Source: Bdellovibrionales bacterium (GTDB lineage Bacteria; Bdellovibrionota; Bacteriovoracia; Bacteriovoracales; Bacteriovoracaceae). Taken from it: a DNA stretch of 49,263 nucleotides. The stretch covers positions 1 through 49,263 of the forward strand of contig JAHEZZ010000002.1 of assembly GCA_023250815.1 (NCBI GenBank). The letters run 5' to 3'. Below the pieces are notes generated by a model. That model was given only the letters and a program-made list of their open reading frames with translations. It ran no database searches and was not told the origin of the DNA. Positions 6,649-46,178 of the stretch are shown in pieces (the first letter of the stretch is position 1; each line of letters starts with the position of its first letter). The position numbers and the translations under genes were made by a program.

Positions 6649-8264
6649 ACCTCTTCCTTTGCAAAATCAGAAAAATCTCTATTTTGCCCTTGTAGTTTTT
6701 TCTTTTGATTTTTAAGTCTGATACAAAATTGAGTGGGGTGACTTGTAAAAAATAATTCACCTTCAATATCTTTTAAAATTTTTCTAACTATATTTAATCC
6801 TAGGCCAGTTCCCCTGCTACGAGGCCCTCTAATAAAGGCCGAAGACATTTCATCAAGTGTTTTAAAAGAACACTCTCCCATATCCTGTACGGTAATATCT
6901 AAATATTGTCCGACCATTTTCACAATGACAGTGTGAGGAGCAAGTCCGTGCGACAAAGAATTTTCTAAAATATTTTTTATGCAAATTCCCGCCCAATAAG
7001 GGTCAAGTACAAAACTCTCATCCTTAGAAAGTGGTACAAATAAAAAGAGCTCAGAAACTTGTGCAAGTTGATCTTGAATAAACTCATTGATTGAAGAAAT
7101 TTTTATCCATTTATTTTCAATAAACTTATTTCCTCTCTGAAGTCTGAGATAATTTCGAGTCGTTTGCACTAAGCGATTAAGCCGATGGCCTTCTGAAGAA
7201 AGACGTAAAATAGTATCTTGTGTATCATTATCATAGTCATTAAATCTTTTATTTAACGATTCCAAAACAAGTAAAATACTAGCGACTGGAGTTCTAAATT
7301 CATGAGTCAGTACCTGTAAGGCCAGTCTTTGTCTTTCTTCTTCTTTCTTTTGCTGTTTAATTTTATTCAGCAAAATCGCCAAAACGATCGTCATTAAAAA
7401 AATCGATCCTGCAAAAAAAGTCATTCCCGATTCTCCCGCAAGCTGCGAGAGATGGCCGGTATTATGGGCCCAGCATATCTTGTCTTCTTTCACTAAACAC
7501 CGCTGGCCTGGCCTCGAATTAAATATAACGTAGGGGCCTTTTTTTAAAAATTGATCGAAATCGGAACGTTTGAAAACTTTATAATCGAGATCTGAGTAAA
7601 TTGATTTAAAACTAGATCGCCAAACAACATAATGAGAATTAATGAACCCTGACATACCTTTGCTGAGATTTGAAATTTCTTCTGGCGCAAGTTCTTCCAA
7701 AAAACTATAAGGATAAGGAAGCTGAATCATAAATTTTTTAAGTTCAGGAAGTTCATTCACATGAAAGTATTCTATATGTTCATATACCCAATCTTTTTTA
7801 TAAAATTCTTTACTCGGTAGCTTAAATGCCAAATAAGTATAACTATGGCCACTAGGGTGAACAAAAGGCGGGCGAATAAAAAAGTCGAGGGGGAGTACGC
7901 TTCGTTTTTCACAACGATACTCTTCCCAAATCCAAATTTTTTCATAATTTTTTTGATTGCTCAGATCAATAATATATTTAAAACAATCACTGCTAGTAAA
8001 AAAGATATCTCTTTTGTCTTGGTTAATTCCGTACAAAGGATTACTTAAAGTGACCAGTTGAAATTGTTCCGGCCCCAAATAGAGGGAACTTAAATTGAGA
8101 ATATGTAAAGGGCGACCAACTGCCTTAAAGTCTTGTTTGGCCTTTTGAATACCCTCAATTTCCGAAGACGTAACAGTTGGGGTACCGTTCACTCTTAGAC
8201 CGTATAGCCCCGTCAAAATGGCCATACTAGCGGCACAAAAAAACAAAATCACATAAAGCTTCAA
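6645..8264 (-). CDS. sensor histidine kinase
   Basis: HEFRTPVASILLVLESL H-box, SRGTGLGLNIVRKIL G-box; overlaps response regulator; TTG start with GAGG upstream. Confidence 0.92.
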   Translation of the reverse strand: MKLYVILFFCAASMAILTGLYGLRVNGTPTVTSSEIEGIQKAKQDFKAVGRPLHILNLSSLYLGPEQFQLVTLSNPLYGINQDKRDIFFTSSDCFKYIIDLSNQKNYEKIWIWEEYRCEKRSVLPLDFFIRPPFVHPSGHSYTYLAFKLPSKEFYKKDWVYEHIEYFHVNELPELKKFMIQLPYPYSFLEELAPEEISNLSKGMSGFINSHYVVWRSSFKSIYSDLDYKVFKRSDFDQFLKKGPYVIFNSRPGQRCLVKEDKICWAHNTGHLSQLAGESGMTFFAGSIFLMTIVLAILLNKIKQQKKEEERQRLALQVLTHEFRTPVASILLVLESLNKRFNDYDNDTQDTILRLSSEGHRLNRLVQTTRNYLRLQRGNKFIENKWIKISSINEFIQDQLAQVSELFLFVPLSKDESFVLDPYWAGICIKNILENSLSHGLAPHTVIVKMVGQYLDITVQDMGECSFKTLDEMSSAFIRGPRSRGTGLGLNIVRKILKDIEGELFFTSHPTQFCIRLKNQKKKLQGQNRDFSDFAKEEV

Positions 8265-8469
8265 CTACATTCCTCATGTTTGAGTTTTCAAAAGCGGTAC
8301 TATGCCTGTCACTTTATTCCGCCAAAAAAGATGACGGAAGATAACATCAGAAGGGAGACGCCGCCAATCTTTTGCACCATTTTTTTTAATTATTTAATAA
8401 CAATTCATTTGCTTCATTCAAAATATCCTTGATATTATTTATATTGATCCCAGTATACAATGGAAAATA

Positions 8470-22873: not shown

Positions 22874-23239
22874 ATGCCATTTAATGTCTTAGAAAATACG
22901 GTCGGGGGAAAAAATGTAGAGCTTCCCGCTGGTTCAAATTTACAAGATCAAATTAAAAAACTGATCGCCTCTTCGCCAGTTTTTCTTTTTATGAAAGGCA
23001 CTCCTGATTCACCGATGTGTGGATTTTCTGCCAATGTCGTACGTATTTTAAACGACCAGCAAGTGTCCTTTAATTCATTTGATATTCTTTTAAATGGAGA
23101 AGTTCGTCAGGCGGTAAAAGATTTTTCAAACTGGCCAACTTATCCTCAGCTTTATATTAAAGGTGAACTCATTGGCGGAAATGATATTGTTATGGAAATG
23201 TTAAAAACTGGGGAACTAAAAAAAGTTCTTGAAAACTAA
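22874..23239 (+). CDS. grxD: monothiol glutaredoxin (Grx4 type)
   Basis: FMKGTPDSPMCGFSANVV (CGFS), NWPTYPQLYIKGELIGGNDI. Confidence 0.95.
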   Translation: MPFNVLENTVGGKNVELPAGSNLQDQIKKLIASSPVFLFMKGTPDSPMCGFSANVVRILNDQQVSFNSFDILLNGEVRQAVKDFSNWPTYPQLYIKGELIGGNDIVMEMLKTGELKKVLEN

Positions 23240-24469
23240 TTTTTCTCCCTGCACATTAATCGCCAACATCTTTTGAAAGACACTGGGAAACTCGTTTAAA
23301 AACAAAAAAACAATTTTTTTTATCAACTTTGATGAAGAAAGAAATAAAACAAAAGAGCAATGGTTAACCGTCAAATCTAAATTTCTTTTTCGTTCTTCTT
23401 CAAAATAGCAAAAACACTCATCGATATTTTTAATTTTATCATTTTGATATTCTTTTAAGGCCTTCAAAAGAAGTTGGCATTCATTAAAAGCGCTCGCCAA
23501 TCCCTCGCCCGTTATCCCATCATAAAAAGAAAAGCTGTCGCCCAATAAACAAATCTTTCCCAAACTACCTCTGTTGCTTTTTAAGCCCATCGGGCCAAAA
23601 ACTAAAAAGTCATTTAATGAAATGGCATTCTTCAGCTTTTCTTTTAGTGAAGGAAAATATTTTAAAAAAATTTCTGAGTCACTGCCGGGTTTCATCTGTT
23701 TGGCATTAAAAAGCCAAGTAATTCCAATTTTATCCGAAGACAGTGGAGTAATATAGGCCTCAATCCCATCACCCCAAAGAACCTCTACTTTGTTGCTCCA
23801 TGGCCTTATAGTGTAATGTTCCCTGGCCCCTAAACGGAGTGGAAATTCCCCCTTTCTTTTTAAAATCTGAGGGTATAATAATTGACGTTTAATTTCTAAT
23901 TTTTGTTTAAGTAACGAGCTATGGCCATCACAAAGCAGAACCAAGTCTGCTTCAATTATACTCATAACGTTTGAGTTATTAGAAACGGATTGCTCAGTCA
24001 TAAAAGTAACAAAAGGGCGCACCCCTGTCTTAATATCGACAACCTTCGAGGATGTTTTGATGACAACGCCAGAATCTCTTGCTTTATTAAAGAGTAATTG
24101 AGAAAGCACAGTTCTTTTTATTCCCATTCCTCGTGAATTTTTGGGGAATTTACCTTCCAGGCAAATATTTTGATGAGCAAAATTAATACCTTCAAAATAA
24201 TAATAATTATTTTTATCATTTAAAAAATTTTGATCTAAAATATTTTCATCTTTTAAAAAATCTACCGCCCGAGGCATCAGCCCTTCGCCACAAACTTTAT
24301 CAACTGGAAATTTTTCTTTTTCTAGGACTACAACTTCTTTAATTATTTTAGACAATAAAATAGCGGCCACTAAACCGCAGGGCCCCCCGCCAATAATTAC
24401 AACTTTTGAAATTTTATCTTGCTCCTTGCTGGTCATTCTACTCCATTCTAAAAAGTGAGGCCTCTGCAC
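23216..24469 (-). CDS. FAD-dependent oxidoreductase (geranylgeranyl reductase-like)
   Basis: VVIIGGGPCGLVAAILLSK, CGEGLMPRA, ICLLGDSFSFYDGITGEGLASA. Confidence 0.88.
   Translation of the reverse strand: MQRPHFLEWSRMTSKEQDKISKVVIIGGGPCGLVAAILLSKIIKEVVVLEKEKFPVDKVCGEGLMPRAVDFLKDENILDQNFLNDKNNYYYFEGINFAHQNICLEGKFPKNSRGMGIKRTVLSQLLFNKARDSGVVIKTSSKVVDIKTGVRPFVTFMTEQSVSNNSNVMSIIEADLVLLCDGHSSLLKQKLEIKRQLLYPQILKRKGEFPLRLGAREHYTIRPWSNKVEVLWGDGIEAYITPLSSDKIGITWLFNAKQMKPGSDSEIFLKYFPSLKEKLKNAISLNDFLVFGPMGLKSNRGSLGKICLLGDSFSFYDGITGEGLASAFNECQLLLKALKEYQNDKIKNIDECFCYFEEERKRNLDLTVNHCSFVLFLSSSKLIKKIVFLFLNEFPSVFQKMLAINVQGEKLVFKNFF
23957..23998 (-). repeat. palindromic repeat P1, copy C, in frame inside the FAD oxidoreductase
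   Basis: actgagcaatccgtttctaataactcaaacgttatgagtata; 33/42 identity to copy A; encodes TEQSVSNNSNVMSI. Confidence 0.75.
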
Positions 24470-25505
24470 AAAAACCAGGGCCCATGGCCGTTCCTAGGCC
24501 CATCTGGCCAGACTTAAAATAATTTTTAAAGACTTCATCCAAAATAAGCAAAACACTAGCGGAACTTAAATTTCCATAATTCTCAAGCAGAGAATAACTC
24601 AAATGCAATTCTTTTGAAGTAATACCTAGACCTTGCTCCATACCCTCAAGTACTTTTGGCCCTCCGGGATGAGCAACATAAAATGCAAGATCTTTAATCC
24701 CCAAATGGTGTTGCTCCAAAAATTTTATAAGAAAAGGCGAAACTTTTTCTTTTGCCACTTGAGGGACCTCTTTTCCTAAAACTATTTTAAGTCCAGTATC
24801 AATAAAATCCCAACCCATTACTCTTTGAGTGTTAAAATAAAAGTCGCTTGCACCGCTAATCCATTTAATTTTTTTTATATTAGAATTTTTAGCGAGAGGG
24901 TGCAGATCCCCCACCATACACATGGCGCCAGAACCATCGGCAAAAAGTCCGGTAGAAACCCAATTGGCCACAGAAAAATCATCAAATTGAAAAGTCAGGG
25001 TACAAAGTTCTGTACAAAATAAAACTCCAACAGAGTGAGGATGGCCTACAAGATACTCGGCCATAAGGTTGATACCCGCCATACCCCCGAGGCAGCCTAG
25101 ACCAAAGAGGGGCATTCTTTTTATTGATGGTTTAAAATCCATGGTATTTAAAACTCTGGCATCAAGACTTGGAACTGCCAGACCAGTAACCGTAGAACAC
25201 ATTATAAAATCAACATCCAAGGCCTTGAGATTTGTCTCTTGTAAAACAGTTTTAACTGCCTCGCTAGAAAGTCTGGTGGCCACTTCAATAAATTTATCAT
25301 TTTTATCAGAAAGCCCATTAAGTCGGCCATATTCAATAAGAGGAATCGCCAAAAATCTTTTTTTAACACCTACATTTTTATGAAGTTCAGCGACACGATT
25401 AAAGTGGCCCCTTCTTTCCCACATCGCTTTAATGGCCTCGATAATTTCAAGTTGAGTATGCTCGTTTTCTGGAAGCGCTTTGGAAGTAGAAACGATATAA
25501 GGCAT
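24438..25505 (-). CDS. type III polyketide synthase (chalcone/stilbene synthase family)
   Basis: GLGCLGGMAGINLMAEYL (Cys), YVAHPGGPKVLEG (His), ENYGNLSSASVL (Asn). Confidence 0.92.
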   Translation of the reverse strand: MPYIVSTSKALPENEHTQLEIIEAIKAMWERRGHFNRVAELHKNVGVKKRFLAIPLIEYGRLNGLSDKNDKFIEVATRLSSEAVKTVLQETNLKALDVDFIMCSTVTGLAVPSLDARVLNTMDFKPSIKRMPLFGLGCLGGMAGINLMAEYLVGHPHSVGVLFCTELCTLTFQFDDFSVANWVSTGLFADGSGAMCMVGDLHPLAKNSNIKKIKWISGASDFYFNTQRVMGWDFIDTGLKIVLGKEVPQVAKEKVSPFLIKFLEQHHLGIKDLAFYVAHPGGPKVLEGMEQGLGITSKELHLSYSLLENYGNLSSASVLLILDEVFKNYFKSGQMGLGTAMGPGFCAEASLFRME

Positions 25506-25515
25506 TAGGGGCCCT

Positions 25516-26211
25516 TTATTTGAGGGGAATATTGATTTTAAATTTCACTTGAATTTCATCAGATACTTTTGCGACTAAAATTGAAGGATCTGGAATTTCT
25601 AATTCTTTTAAACTTAAAATAGTTTGGCCTTCACTTCTAAGCCACGCCTCATTATTTAAGGTGCTTTTAAAAATTTTTATTTTTAATTTTATATTTTTTT
25701 CTTTTCCTCGAATAAAAATAACTCCCATAACTTCTTCTTCATTGGCCTCCGTTGGACTTATTTTAACCGGGCCTTGAATCATGATTTTAATATCCATAAA
25801 TTGGGGAGACCCCAAACATAACTCGTGCAACTTTTTATCTCGCGACTCTTGATCTGTATCCATACTTAAAATGGGAAAGATCACCTCCATTCCCTCTACT
25901 GATTCTTGAGTTAAGAGGCCTTGCGCTTTGTAATTTTTGACCAGGCCCGAAACCTGAGATGAAAAAAGACCAATTTTGGTACTCGTCACCATAAAACTCA
26001 AACCTTCACTGAGTGGAACAAGTTCTCCTTCGTATGCCTTATGTGCTTCTGTAAAATTTTCGAAATTTTTAGAGTAAGACAATTTCTGGTTCTTGGCCTT
26101 GGCAATTGGCACTAATAGAAAAAAAAGAAGCACAAAAATTAAAGTTCTATACATCACATTTACACTCACCAGGTTTGAGTTTTCCGCTGCGGACATCTCA
26201 GTATAATTCAC
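25516..26211 (-). CDS. secreted YceI-like protein
   Basis: Signal peptide MYRTLIFVLLFFLLVPIAKA; YceI-like layout; true start probably MYRTL, since upstream residues fall in repeat P1-B. Confidence 0.65.
   Translation of the reverse strand: MNYTEMSAAENSNLVSVNVMYRTLIFVLLFFLLVPIAKAKNQKLSYSKNFENFTEAHKAYEGELVPLSEGLSFMVTSTKIGLFSSQVSGLVKNYKAQGLLTQESVEGMEVIFPILSMDTDQESRDKKLHELCLGSPQFMDIKIMIQGPVKISPTEANEEEVMGVIFIRGKEKNIKLKIKIFKSTLNNEAWLRSEGQTILSLKELEIPDPSILVAKVSDEIQVKFKINIPLK
26161..26202 (-). repeat. palindromic repeat P1, copy B
   Basis: actgagatgtccgcagcggaaaactcaaacctggtgagtgta; 35/42 identity to copy A. Confidence 0.75.
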
Positions 26212-33807: not shown

Positions 33808-33842
33808 GGTATTATACCAATTCCACTAATTAATATTGGTAT
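33808..33842 (+). repeat. dispersed repeat Z1
   Basis: ggtattATACCAATtccactaattaatATTGGTAT; 23/24 match to Z2 over accaattccactaattaatattgg. Confidence 0.7.
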
Positions 33843-38606: not shown

Positions 38607-38931
38607 CTTTAAAATCTAAGCGATGCCCATTGGCAAAATCCAAATTCCCAATCAAGAGGCCTTCATGTTCCGCAACCAAAATAATCTTCGAGGAATGCTC
38701 CAAGTGCTGCGAAATAAAATTGACTTCTTCTTCAACCGCCAGATTGAGTTCGTCTGCTTCAGTCAAAGTATAAATATTCTCTGAGATAATAGATTTGGTC
38801 ATTTCCAAAATCCGTGCAGCATCTGATTTTTCAGCGGTACGAATCAGGAGATTTTTTCCGCCTTTTGATTGAAAATTCACTTTCCGAAAACTTGCCATCC
38901 CTGTACTCCACACAGTAAATCTATCCAACAT
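38607..38931 (-). pseudogene. GNAT acetyltransferase N-terminal fragment
   Basis: LLIRTAEKSDAARILEMTKSII...IILVAEHEGLLIGNLDFANGHR then reads into the antisense of the tRNA (KVVRPARFELATPTMSR). Confidence 0.65.
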
Positions 38932-38957
38932 TAATTAGTGGAATTGGTATTAATACC
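38925..38957 (-). repeat. dispersed repeat Z2 (inverted relative to Z1)
   Basis: reverse complement ggtattaataccaattccactaattaatgttgg. Confidence 0.7.
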
Positions 38958-44231: not shown

Positions 44232-45296
44232 ATGAAAATTTCGATTGATGACAAAATTAAAAAATTAATTTCTGCCTTTCAATTACCTCCTGTTTTAGGA
44301 TTTGGAACAGTGATGGCCCCTATCATGATCAGCGTCGATTATGAAAAAGGAAATTGGAATAAAGCAGAGGTCATACCTTATGGCCCACTTTCTTTATATC
44401 CCACTTGTAAAGCACTTCATTATGCTCAAGAAATTTTTGAAGGGCTTAAGGCCTATAAAGTAAACGGAGAAGGGCCCTATATTTTTCGCCCAGAAGAAAA
44501 TGCCAAACGCTTTAATATTTCTGCCACTCGCATGGCCATGCCCTCCATGAATGAAAATCAATTTATCGATTTATGCGAGCAGTTTGCCCTACTATGCGCT
44601 CCCCTTATTCCCTTAAATTCTGGAGAATCCCTCTATATCAGACCTTTCATGTTTGCCACTGAAGAATCTTTGGGAATTAAACCCAGTGAAAAATATAAAT
44701 TTCTTATTATCGGTTCGCCTTCTGGGGCCTATGTTACTGGTGATTCCATGAGCTGCCTGATCGAAAGAGAATACGTTAGAGCAAGCCCCGGCGGAACGGG
44801 ATTCGCAAAAACTGGCGGTAATTATGCTCGCTCAATTTTATCTTCGATTAAGGCAAAAGATTTGGGATTAAATCAAAGTCTTTGGCTAGATTCTAAAAAC
44901 CGGCGATTCATTGAGGAACTCTCCGGTATGAATTTTTTTGCAATGATAAAAGGAGTCATTCACACTCCTTCCCTTAGCGATACTATTTTAAAAGGAATCA
45001 CCAGAGATTGTACTTTGGAAATTGCCAAGAAAGAAGGGATCAAAATCCATGAAGGGCCAATTGATATTGAACAACTTATTAAGGATATAAAGACGGGTGA
45101 TTGCAGCGAACTCTTTGCCTGTGGAACTGCGGCAATTATCACACCAATTGCCAAGCTCTGTGAGGAAAATGCGATAAGCTATACTCCCAAATACCCAGAT
45201 GCCCCGACAGGACTCAAACTTCGAAAAATATTATTAGATATCCAAGAAGGAAAAACAAATGATCCTTTTAGGTGGCGAAAAAAACTAATTTCATAA
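44232..45296 (+). CDS. ilvE: branched-chain amino acid aminotransferase
   Basis: EIFEGLKAYK, GGTGFAKTGGNYARSI, EELSGMNFF, GTAAIITPI. Confidence 0.92.
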   Translation: MKISIDDKIKKLISAFQLPPVLGFGTVMAPIMISVDYEKGNWNKAEVIPYGPLSLYPTCKALHYAQEIFEGLKAYKVNGEGPYIFRPEENAKRFNISATRMAMPSMNENQFIDLCEQFALLCAPLIPLNSGESLYIRPFMFATEESLGIKPSEKYKFLIIGSPSGAYVTGDSMSCLIEREYVRASPGGTGFAKTGGNYARSILSSIKAKDLGLNQSLWLDSKNRRFIEELSGMNFFAMIKGVIHTPSLSDTILKGITRDCTLEIAKKEGIKIHEGPIDIEQLIKDIKTGDCSELFACGTAAIITPIAKLCEENAISYTPKYPDAPTGLKLRKILLDIQEGKTNDPFRWRKKLIS

Positions 45297-46178
45297 AGGG
45301 CATAAAATTTTTCGGGCGACAACAATGCCGGCCCAATCACTTTCTTCTGGAGCTACATTGCCCTCGATTTTATCCTCTCCACAAATCATTTCAATTTTAA
45401 ATCCCGCCTCAGATAAAAAAATCTCTATCTCATCTTTATAAAAAAAACGCATGGGGTGTTTTTCTAAAAAAGTCTCAATCATTTTTCCTTGATGATCAAA
45501 AACTTTAACATCAATCATAATATCGGCCTGATTCTCACGTCCCTTTGATAGGGGTGTAACCTCTCTGACAATTTTTCCTGCGGAAATAAGAAATTCTTTT
45601 TTCCTGCTCTCAAGTCCCAAGTGTTTAACACCTGTCTTGTTCCAATAATCAAATATAAACAGGCCATCTTTTTTCAAATACCTGGCGGCATTTTTCAAGT
45701 AATTTTGAACATCATTGTCATTGGTCATATAAGAAAAAACATGAAAAAGTGAAATGCAGGTATCAAAAGAGGTCGATATATTTAATTCCAGAGAATCTTT
45801 TGCCAAGTTAAGGATATGAAATGAGACCTCTCGATTTTTATCTTTTATACTCATCACGTTTGAGTTTTCCGTTACGGAAAACTCAGTATTACGAGTGGTA
45901 TACCCGCAGCGGTTTGCTTGAAAAGCAAAGTGTGAAGGGTATAGTTTCATGGCAAACTGTTCGATCATTTCCCCTGATAGATCCACTCCGGTGTAATTTT
46001 CATAAAAGGGACAAAGATGTAAAGCATGCCCCCCGGTTCCACAACCTAACTCAAGCAAGTTTCCCAAGTGAAATTTGCCATTCATTTTTTCAAAAATTTT
46101 CTTGAGATTTAAAATTTCTTTTTGATAATCTTTATCGGAGTAAATGGCATCGTAGTATTCGGCATAATGCTTAAACAC
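45291..46178 (-). CDS. SAM-dependent methyltransferase carrying in-frame repeat insertion
   Basis: NLLELGCGTGGHALHL, YTGVDLSGEMIEQF, then repeat-derived KLYPSHFAFQANRCGYTTRNTEFSVTENSNVMSI. Confidence 0.88.
   Translation of the reverse strand: MFKHYAEYYDAIYSDKDYQKEILNLKKIFEKMNGKFHLGNLLELGCGTGGHALHLCPFYENYTGVDLSGEMIEQFAMKLYPSHFAFQANRCGYTTRNTEFSVTENSNVMSIKDKNREVSFHILNLAKDSLELNISTSFDTCISLFHVFSYMTNDNDVQNYLKNAARYLKKDGLFIFDYWNKTGVKHLGLESRKKEFLISAGKIVREVTPLSKGRENQADIMIDVKVFDHQGKMIETFLEKHPMRFFYKDEIEIFLSEAGFKIEMICGEDKIEGNVAPEESDWAGIVVARKILCPL
45846..45887 (-). repeat. palindromic repeat P1, copy A (in frame)
   Basis: Contains perfect palindrome TGAGTTTTCCGTtACGGAAAACTCA at 45861-45885; encodes TEFSVTENSNVMSI. 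Confidence 0.85.
45897..45947. repeat. palindromic repeat P2, copy 2, adjacent to P1-A
   Basis: TATACCC...TTTGCTTgaaAAGCAAA...GGGTATA; shares gaagggtatagttt with the 4911 copy. Confidence 0.65.

Follow-up and report, generated by a model that had tools for sequence, protein, structure and literature searches.

A probable decayed copy of a palindromic repeat in the coding sequence of an FAD-dependent oxidoreductase

A segment of a predicted FAD-dependent oxidoreductase gene very probably derives from a MITE-like repeat, short, palindromic, and non-autonomous, that inserted into the coding sequence and has since degenerated. The loop of ∼10-15 aa that it adds is in all likelihood inert and without a function. 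The repeat is represented by ∼75 well-supported copies dispersed over a 2.7-Mb genome, and those of its copies that lie within the window (the whole stretch of 49,263 nt that was analyzed) and are discussed here are listed in Table 1 together with the neighboring genes.

Table 1. Repeat copies and genes of the window discussed in the text
Feature	Position	Strand	Description
Focal decayed copy of the element	23956..24007	+	TTATACTCATAACGTTTGAGTT as left end, followed by the decayed hairpin, CTCAGT, and a weak tail, CATAAAAGT
Host gene, FAD-dependent oxidoreductase, GGR-superfamily-like	23216..24469	-	Frame intact; insert corresponds to residues 143-158 of P0001
Type III polyketide synthase gene, DpgA/chalcone-synthase-like	24438-25505	-	Immediately upstream of the host gene
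Intergenic module 1 copy	26160..26204	+	57.5 bits, E 6e-12; located between the YceI-like and RmuC genes, which are divergent
Copy A, full-length two-hairpin element	45844..45944	+	In frame in the methyltransferase gene 45291-46178 (-), encodes YPSHFAFQANRCGYTTRNTEFSVTENSNVMSI

The focal copy and its host enzyme

The preliminary description of this DNA had reported that positions 23957-23998 match copy A (45846-45887) in 33 of 42 bases, and the same count was obtained here. In the coding frame, these two segments encode MTEQSVSNNSNVMSI and NTEFSVTENSNVMSI, respectively, and the minus-strand reading of the focal copy is MTEQSVSNNSNVMSII. The shared frame, which had also been pointed out, was indeed seen but carries no weight as independent evidence, because the element has just one open frame of three in that orientation. 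For the 45-nt module, a covariance model was derived from 14 copies with the focal one left out. It recognized positions 23956-24000 of the plus strand with 34.5 bits and E-values of 2.5e-6 in the window (no filters) and 1.3e-4 genome-wide. Local alignment of the focal copy reaches 52 nt (23956-24007), with a score that none of 300 shuffles could match.

The insertion had been described as old, decayed, and in frame, and all three attributes were upheld. The predicted DNA fold of the focal copy has an energy of -2.6 kcal/mol (z -0.5) versus -10.9 (z -5.8) for copy A, in agreement with the proposed decay of the palindrome. The part that has been kept, described earlier as the 3′ half, consists of 22 bases (21 of them identical) at the left end of the element on the plus strand and of CTCAGT at the other edge. 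Departures from the consensus are clustered (TTT to CAA, GAA to AAT), unlike an even, simple neutral decay. In the encoded peptide, the flanks (TE.SV and NSNVMSI) are unchanged relative to copy A and the hairpin core is now polar (F to Q, T to S, and E to N); the reading frame of the gene has remained intact despite the decay of the hairpin.

The host enzyme, which is close to the geranylgeranyl reductase superfamily, scores 77.1 bits against TIGR02032, under the curated cut-off of 158.8; it also matches FAD_binding_3. Its fold neighbors in the PDB are FAD monooxygenases and halogenases, with 3nix as the best one. The longest reading of its gene overlaps the polyketide synthase gene, and these two genes probably form one operon. 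The closest named homologs of the FAD enzyme come from Bacteriovorax sp. BSW11_IV and Bacteriovoracaceae bins, which suggests that the genome itself probably belongs to the Bacteriovoracaceae.

Alignment with homologs, proposed earlier as a check of the insertion, showed a shorter loop in all 17 same-family proteins (23 to 42 residues between anchors versus 45) and in 28 named homologs, a partly overlapping set (25 to 44 residues, median 33.5, versus 46 in the window protein). The companion search for NSNVMS in the homologs, meant as an attempt at refutation, left the insertion unrefuted: NSNV is absent from the named homologs and from the aligned loop of the 17. However, the homolog comparison by itself would not prove an insertion, given that the nearest homologs are only ∼28-40% identical to the FAD enzyme and that natural loop lengths vary from 25 to 44 residues between anchors. 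The net gain relative to close homologs is ∼10 aa, and the recognizable repeat DNA comprises 15 to 17 codons. The enzyme retains the positions that are invariant across 29 homologs. In the AlphaFold model (mean pLDDT 89.9, ∼81-85 over the insert), the inserted residues are placed between strands 139-144 and 155-159, on a β-hairpin.

The same enzyme contains a second lineage-specific insert of ∼10 aa, YPQILKRKGE (residues ∼185-194; DNA 23846-23877, minus strand), in a region that spans 32 residues between anchors versus 21 to 28 in the other proteins. Its DNA bears a weak resemblance to hairpin module 2 (among 300 mononucleotide shuffles, 7 were equally good, uncorrected for several tests) and was not reported by the covariance model. 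This insert may derive from the second hairpin module of the element, which should be taken as a lead only.

The repeat family and its distribution

The full unit of ∼99 nt consists of two hairpins and ends with TTATAC and GTATAA. Its first half has the order TTATACTCATCACGTT, hairpin 1 (TGAGTTTTCCGGTACGGAAAACTCA), and GTATTACGAGTGG, followed in the second half by TATACCC..., hairpin 2 (TTTGCTTGAAAAGCAAA), and GTGCGAAGGGTATAA. Individual copies are 45 to 101 nt long, the short forms either terminating at ATTACGAAGGGTATA or consisting of module 1 only. In a second subfamily, TTATACTCCTCACG...CCAGTTTGG...CTCAATAT, hairpin 2 is different yet paired. For hairpin 1, 93.1% of the cells are paired in 71 distinct copies, and the covariation score was reached by none of 500 shuffles and by none of the slid controls. 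Since the copies are related to each other and had been aligned by fitting to the model, this covariation constitutes support, not proof. The ends of the element are sharp, and the flanks carry little information.

A pattern search of the genome returned 54 places, with none for the reversed control pattern, and the covariance model gave 76 full-module matches at E ≤ 1.3e-4 genome-wide, one of them stemming from the opposite strand of a copy that is an almost perfect palindrome. Copies at contig ends share flanks in the pairs L090/L091 (C185, C241) and L069/L105 (C88, C197); these may be assembly-breaking repeats or single loci counted twice, which may make the copy number slightly too high. 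At L150 (∼1472-1528), the copy is near-perfectly palindromic over its full length (TTATACTCCTCACGTCTGAG...CTCAGACGTGAGGAGTATAA). A further candidate in the window, delineated by a repeat finder at positions 8264-8309, was discarded as unsupported by the covariance model (E 0.83). The sole Rfam match in the window is a tRNA. The window also contains an unrelated pair of 26-nt inverted repeats (33814-33839 and 38925-38950) that are 96% complementary and 5 kb apart.

A simple gene caller placed 66 of 81 copies between genes; five were clearly within genes after inspection. The latter are found in genes for the methyltransferase (copy A), a BrkB/YihY-family membrane protein (C241), a trypsin-like protease (C39), an unassigned protein lacking Pfam matches (C198), and the FAD enzyme. 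Two of the six frames of the consensus are stop-free throughout, and all five in-gene copies use those frames exclusively, so the peptide that they have in common follows from the DNA itself and does not testify to a peptide function. In the BrkB/YihY-family protein, the element accounts for a clean insertion of ∼17 aa, SHTEFSVAENSNMMSVT, missing from 11 orthologs. The protease has 207 residues over 173 positions of the trypsin profile, matching the expectation for a 33-aa insert. For the methyltransferase, no orthologs were detected in the same bacterial family at E ≤ 1e-25. Among the intergenic copies, 24 lie between divergent genes versus 6 between convergent ones, and the background intergenic space is 2894 bp divergent versus 1748 bp convergent.

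The terminal inverted repeats (TTATAC...GTATAA) are short and imperfect. A search for target-site duplications in 31 copies gave a single 3-nt match and none longer, and a TA duplication would be indistinguishable from the element's own TATA ends. No autonomous transposon with the same ends, TTATACTC...GAAGGGTATAA, was detected among the DDE_3 and Y1_Tnp families in the genome's own assembly, which is 86% complete. The IS630-like transposase, of which the genome has one complete copy, was rejected as the mover because its flanking inverted repeats are unrelated to the element. A Y1_Tnp (RAYT) protein was likewise rejected, with no match in the own assembly and one each in genomes G023 and G028.

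Among the 59 genomes searched, related two-hairpin elements were found in G023 and G028, both from the same bacterial family, and G003 had a single short right-end match. The elements of G023 are near-identical to each other and have the same right half but not the same hairpin 1, which looks like an exchange of modules. At loci L041, L045, L048, L051, L053, and L055 of this genome, the right half is almost exactly common with the focal family and hairpin 1 differs. Module 1 itself gave no match in the other genomes of the family at E ≤ 1e-5, the exact 22-nt core gave no matches in contigs of named genomes (a collection that may leave out the own genome), and the element was not found in viral contigs. 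A literature search in an open-access library yielded nothing relevant on such repeats from Bdellovibrio or Bacteriovorax and no account of the element itself.

Origin and possible fate of the insert

That a native loop of the enzyme just happens to look like the repeat is highly improbable. Loop length does vary across the enzyme family and 9 of the 42 bases differ from copy A; however, neither the E-values in the window and over the genome nor the shuffle control favor a fortuitous match. The repeat match moreover coincides with the lineage-specific gain in length. The repeat could also be viewed as a regulatory DNA or RNA site (an operator, terminator, or promoter element) with functional in-gene copies, a possibility suggested by the conserved hairpin and by the surplus of intergenic copies between divergent genes. 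This surplus is modest given the background, the focal copy is devoid of the hairpin, and the variable length of the copies, near-identical at unrelated places, resembles mobile DNA; a regulatory role is accordingly very unlikely.

Recruitment of the insert is a special case of the insertion reading: the same event would have produced a peptide that now functions as an interaction surface or in stability and is kept by selection. The intact frame and retained invariant positions, the unchanged flanks around a core that turned polar, and the ordered AlphaFold model all speak for it. The loop, however, occupies a length-variable position and the sole open frame determines which peptides the in-gene copies encode, and such recruitment appears unlikely.

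Under the preferred reading, a tolerated and decayed insertion, the element would have been moved by a transposase; we infer this route, as no partner transposase (DDE_3 and Y1_Tnp families) and no target duplication of at least 3 nt were found. Most in-gene insertions would have been purged, and those that reached a loop with the frame open would have survived. The one in the FAD enzyme was presumably tolerated thanks to its open frame and its location in a surface loop, where the insert would extend the β-hairpin ahead of strand ADLVLLCDG. Subsequent base changes, probably through drift, would have removed the symmetry of the hairpin, the frame staying open. The fresh, shortened, and decayed in-gene copies can be seen as displaying successive stages in the conversion of a mobile repeat into protein sequence.

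Comparison with known palindromic repeats

The element resembles MITEs in being short, multicopy, and non-autonomous, with imperfect terminal inverted repeats and sharp ends, and would be compatible with a TA target. In contrast to MITEs, no autonomous partner was found among the DDE_3 and Y1_Tnp families, the one complete IS630-like transposase having unrelated inverted repeats, and no target duplication of 3 nt or longer was detected. With the REP elements moved by RAYT (Y1_Tnp), it shares the dispersed palindromic repeats; in contrast to that system, no Y1_Tnp gene was found in the present genome (86% complete).

The closest described process is that of the Rickettsia palindromic elements (RPEs), to which the element may be likened in its mode of action. 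Like RPEs, it is short and palindromic and occurs in many dispersed copies, and its in-frame, stop-free insertion in unrelated protein genes adds peptide, here in 5 genes, with orthologs compared for 2 of them. Unlike RPEs, of which nearly half of the first 44 reported lie within genes (PMC10969869), only ∼5 of the 81 copies are in genes; furthermore, the host is apparently a member of the Bacteriovoracaceae rather than Rickettsia, and the element has two hairpins and TTATAC/GTATAA ends. It can be proposed, tentatively and with more doubt than confidence, that an RPE-like process has repeatedly made protein loops in a second, distant bacterial group and that the loop of the FAD enzyme was remodeled and retained for a use. 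Descriptions of selfish palindromic repeats that insert in frame in protein genes come chiefly from Rickettsia, and a 2024 review of MITEs considered the same process conceivable in other prokaryotes (PMC10969869). The present family would represent such a case in an apparently Bacteriovoracaceae genome.
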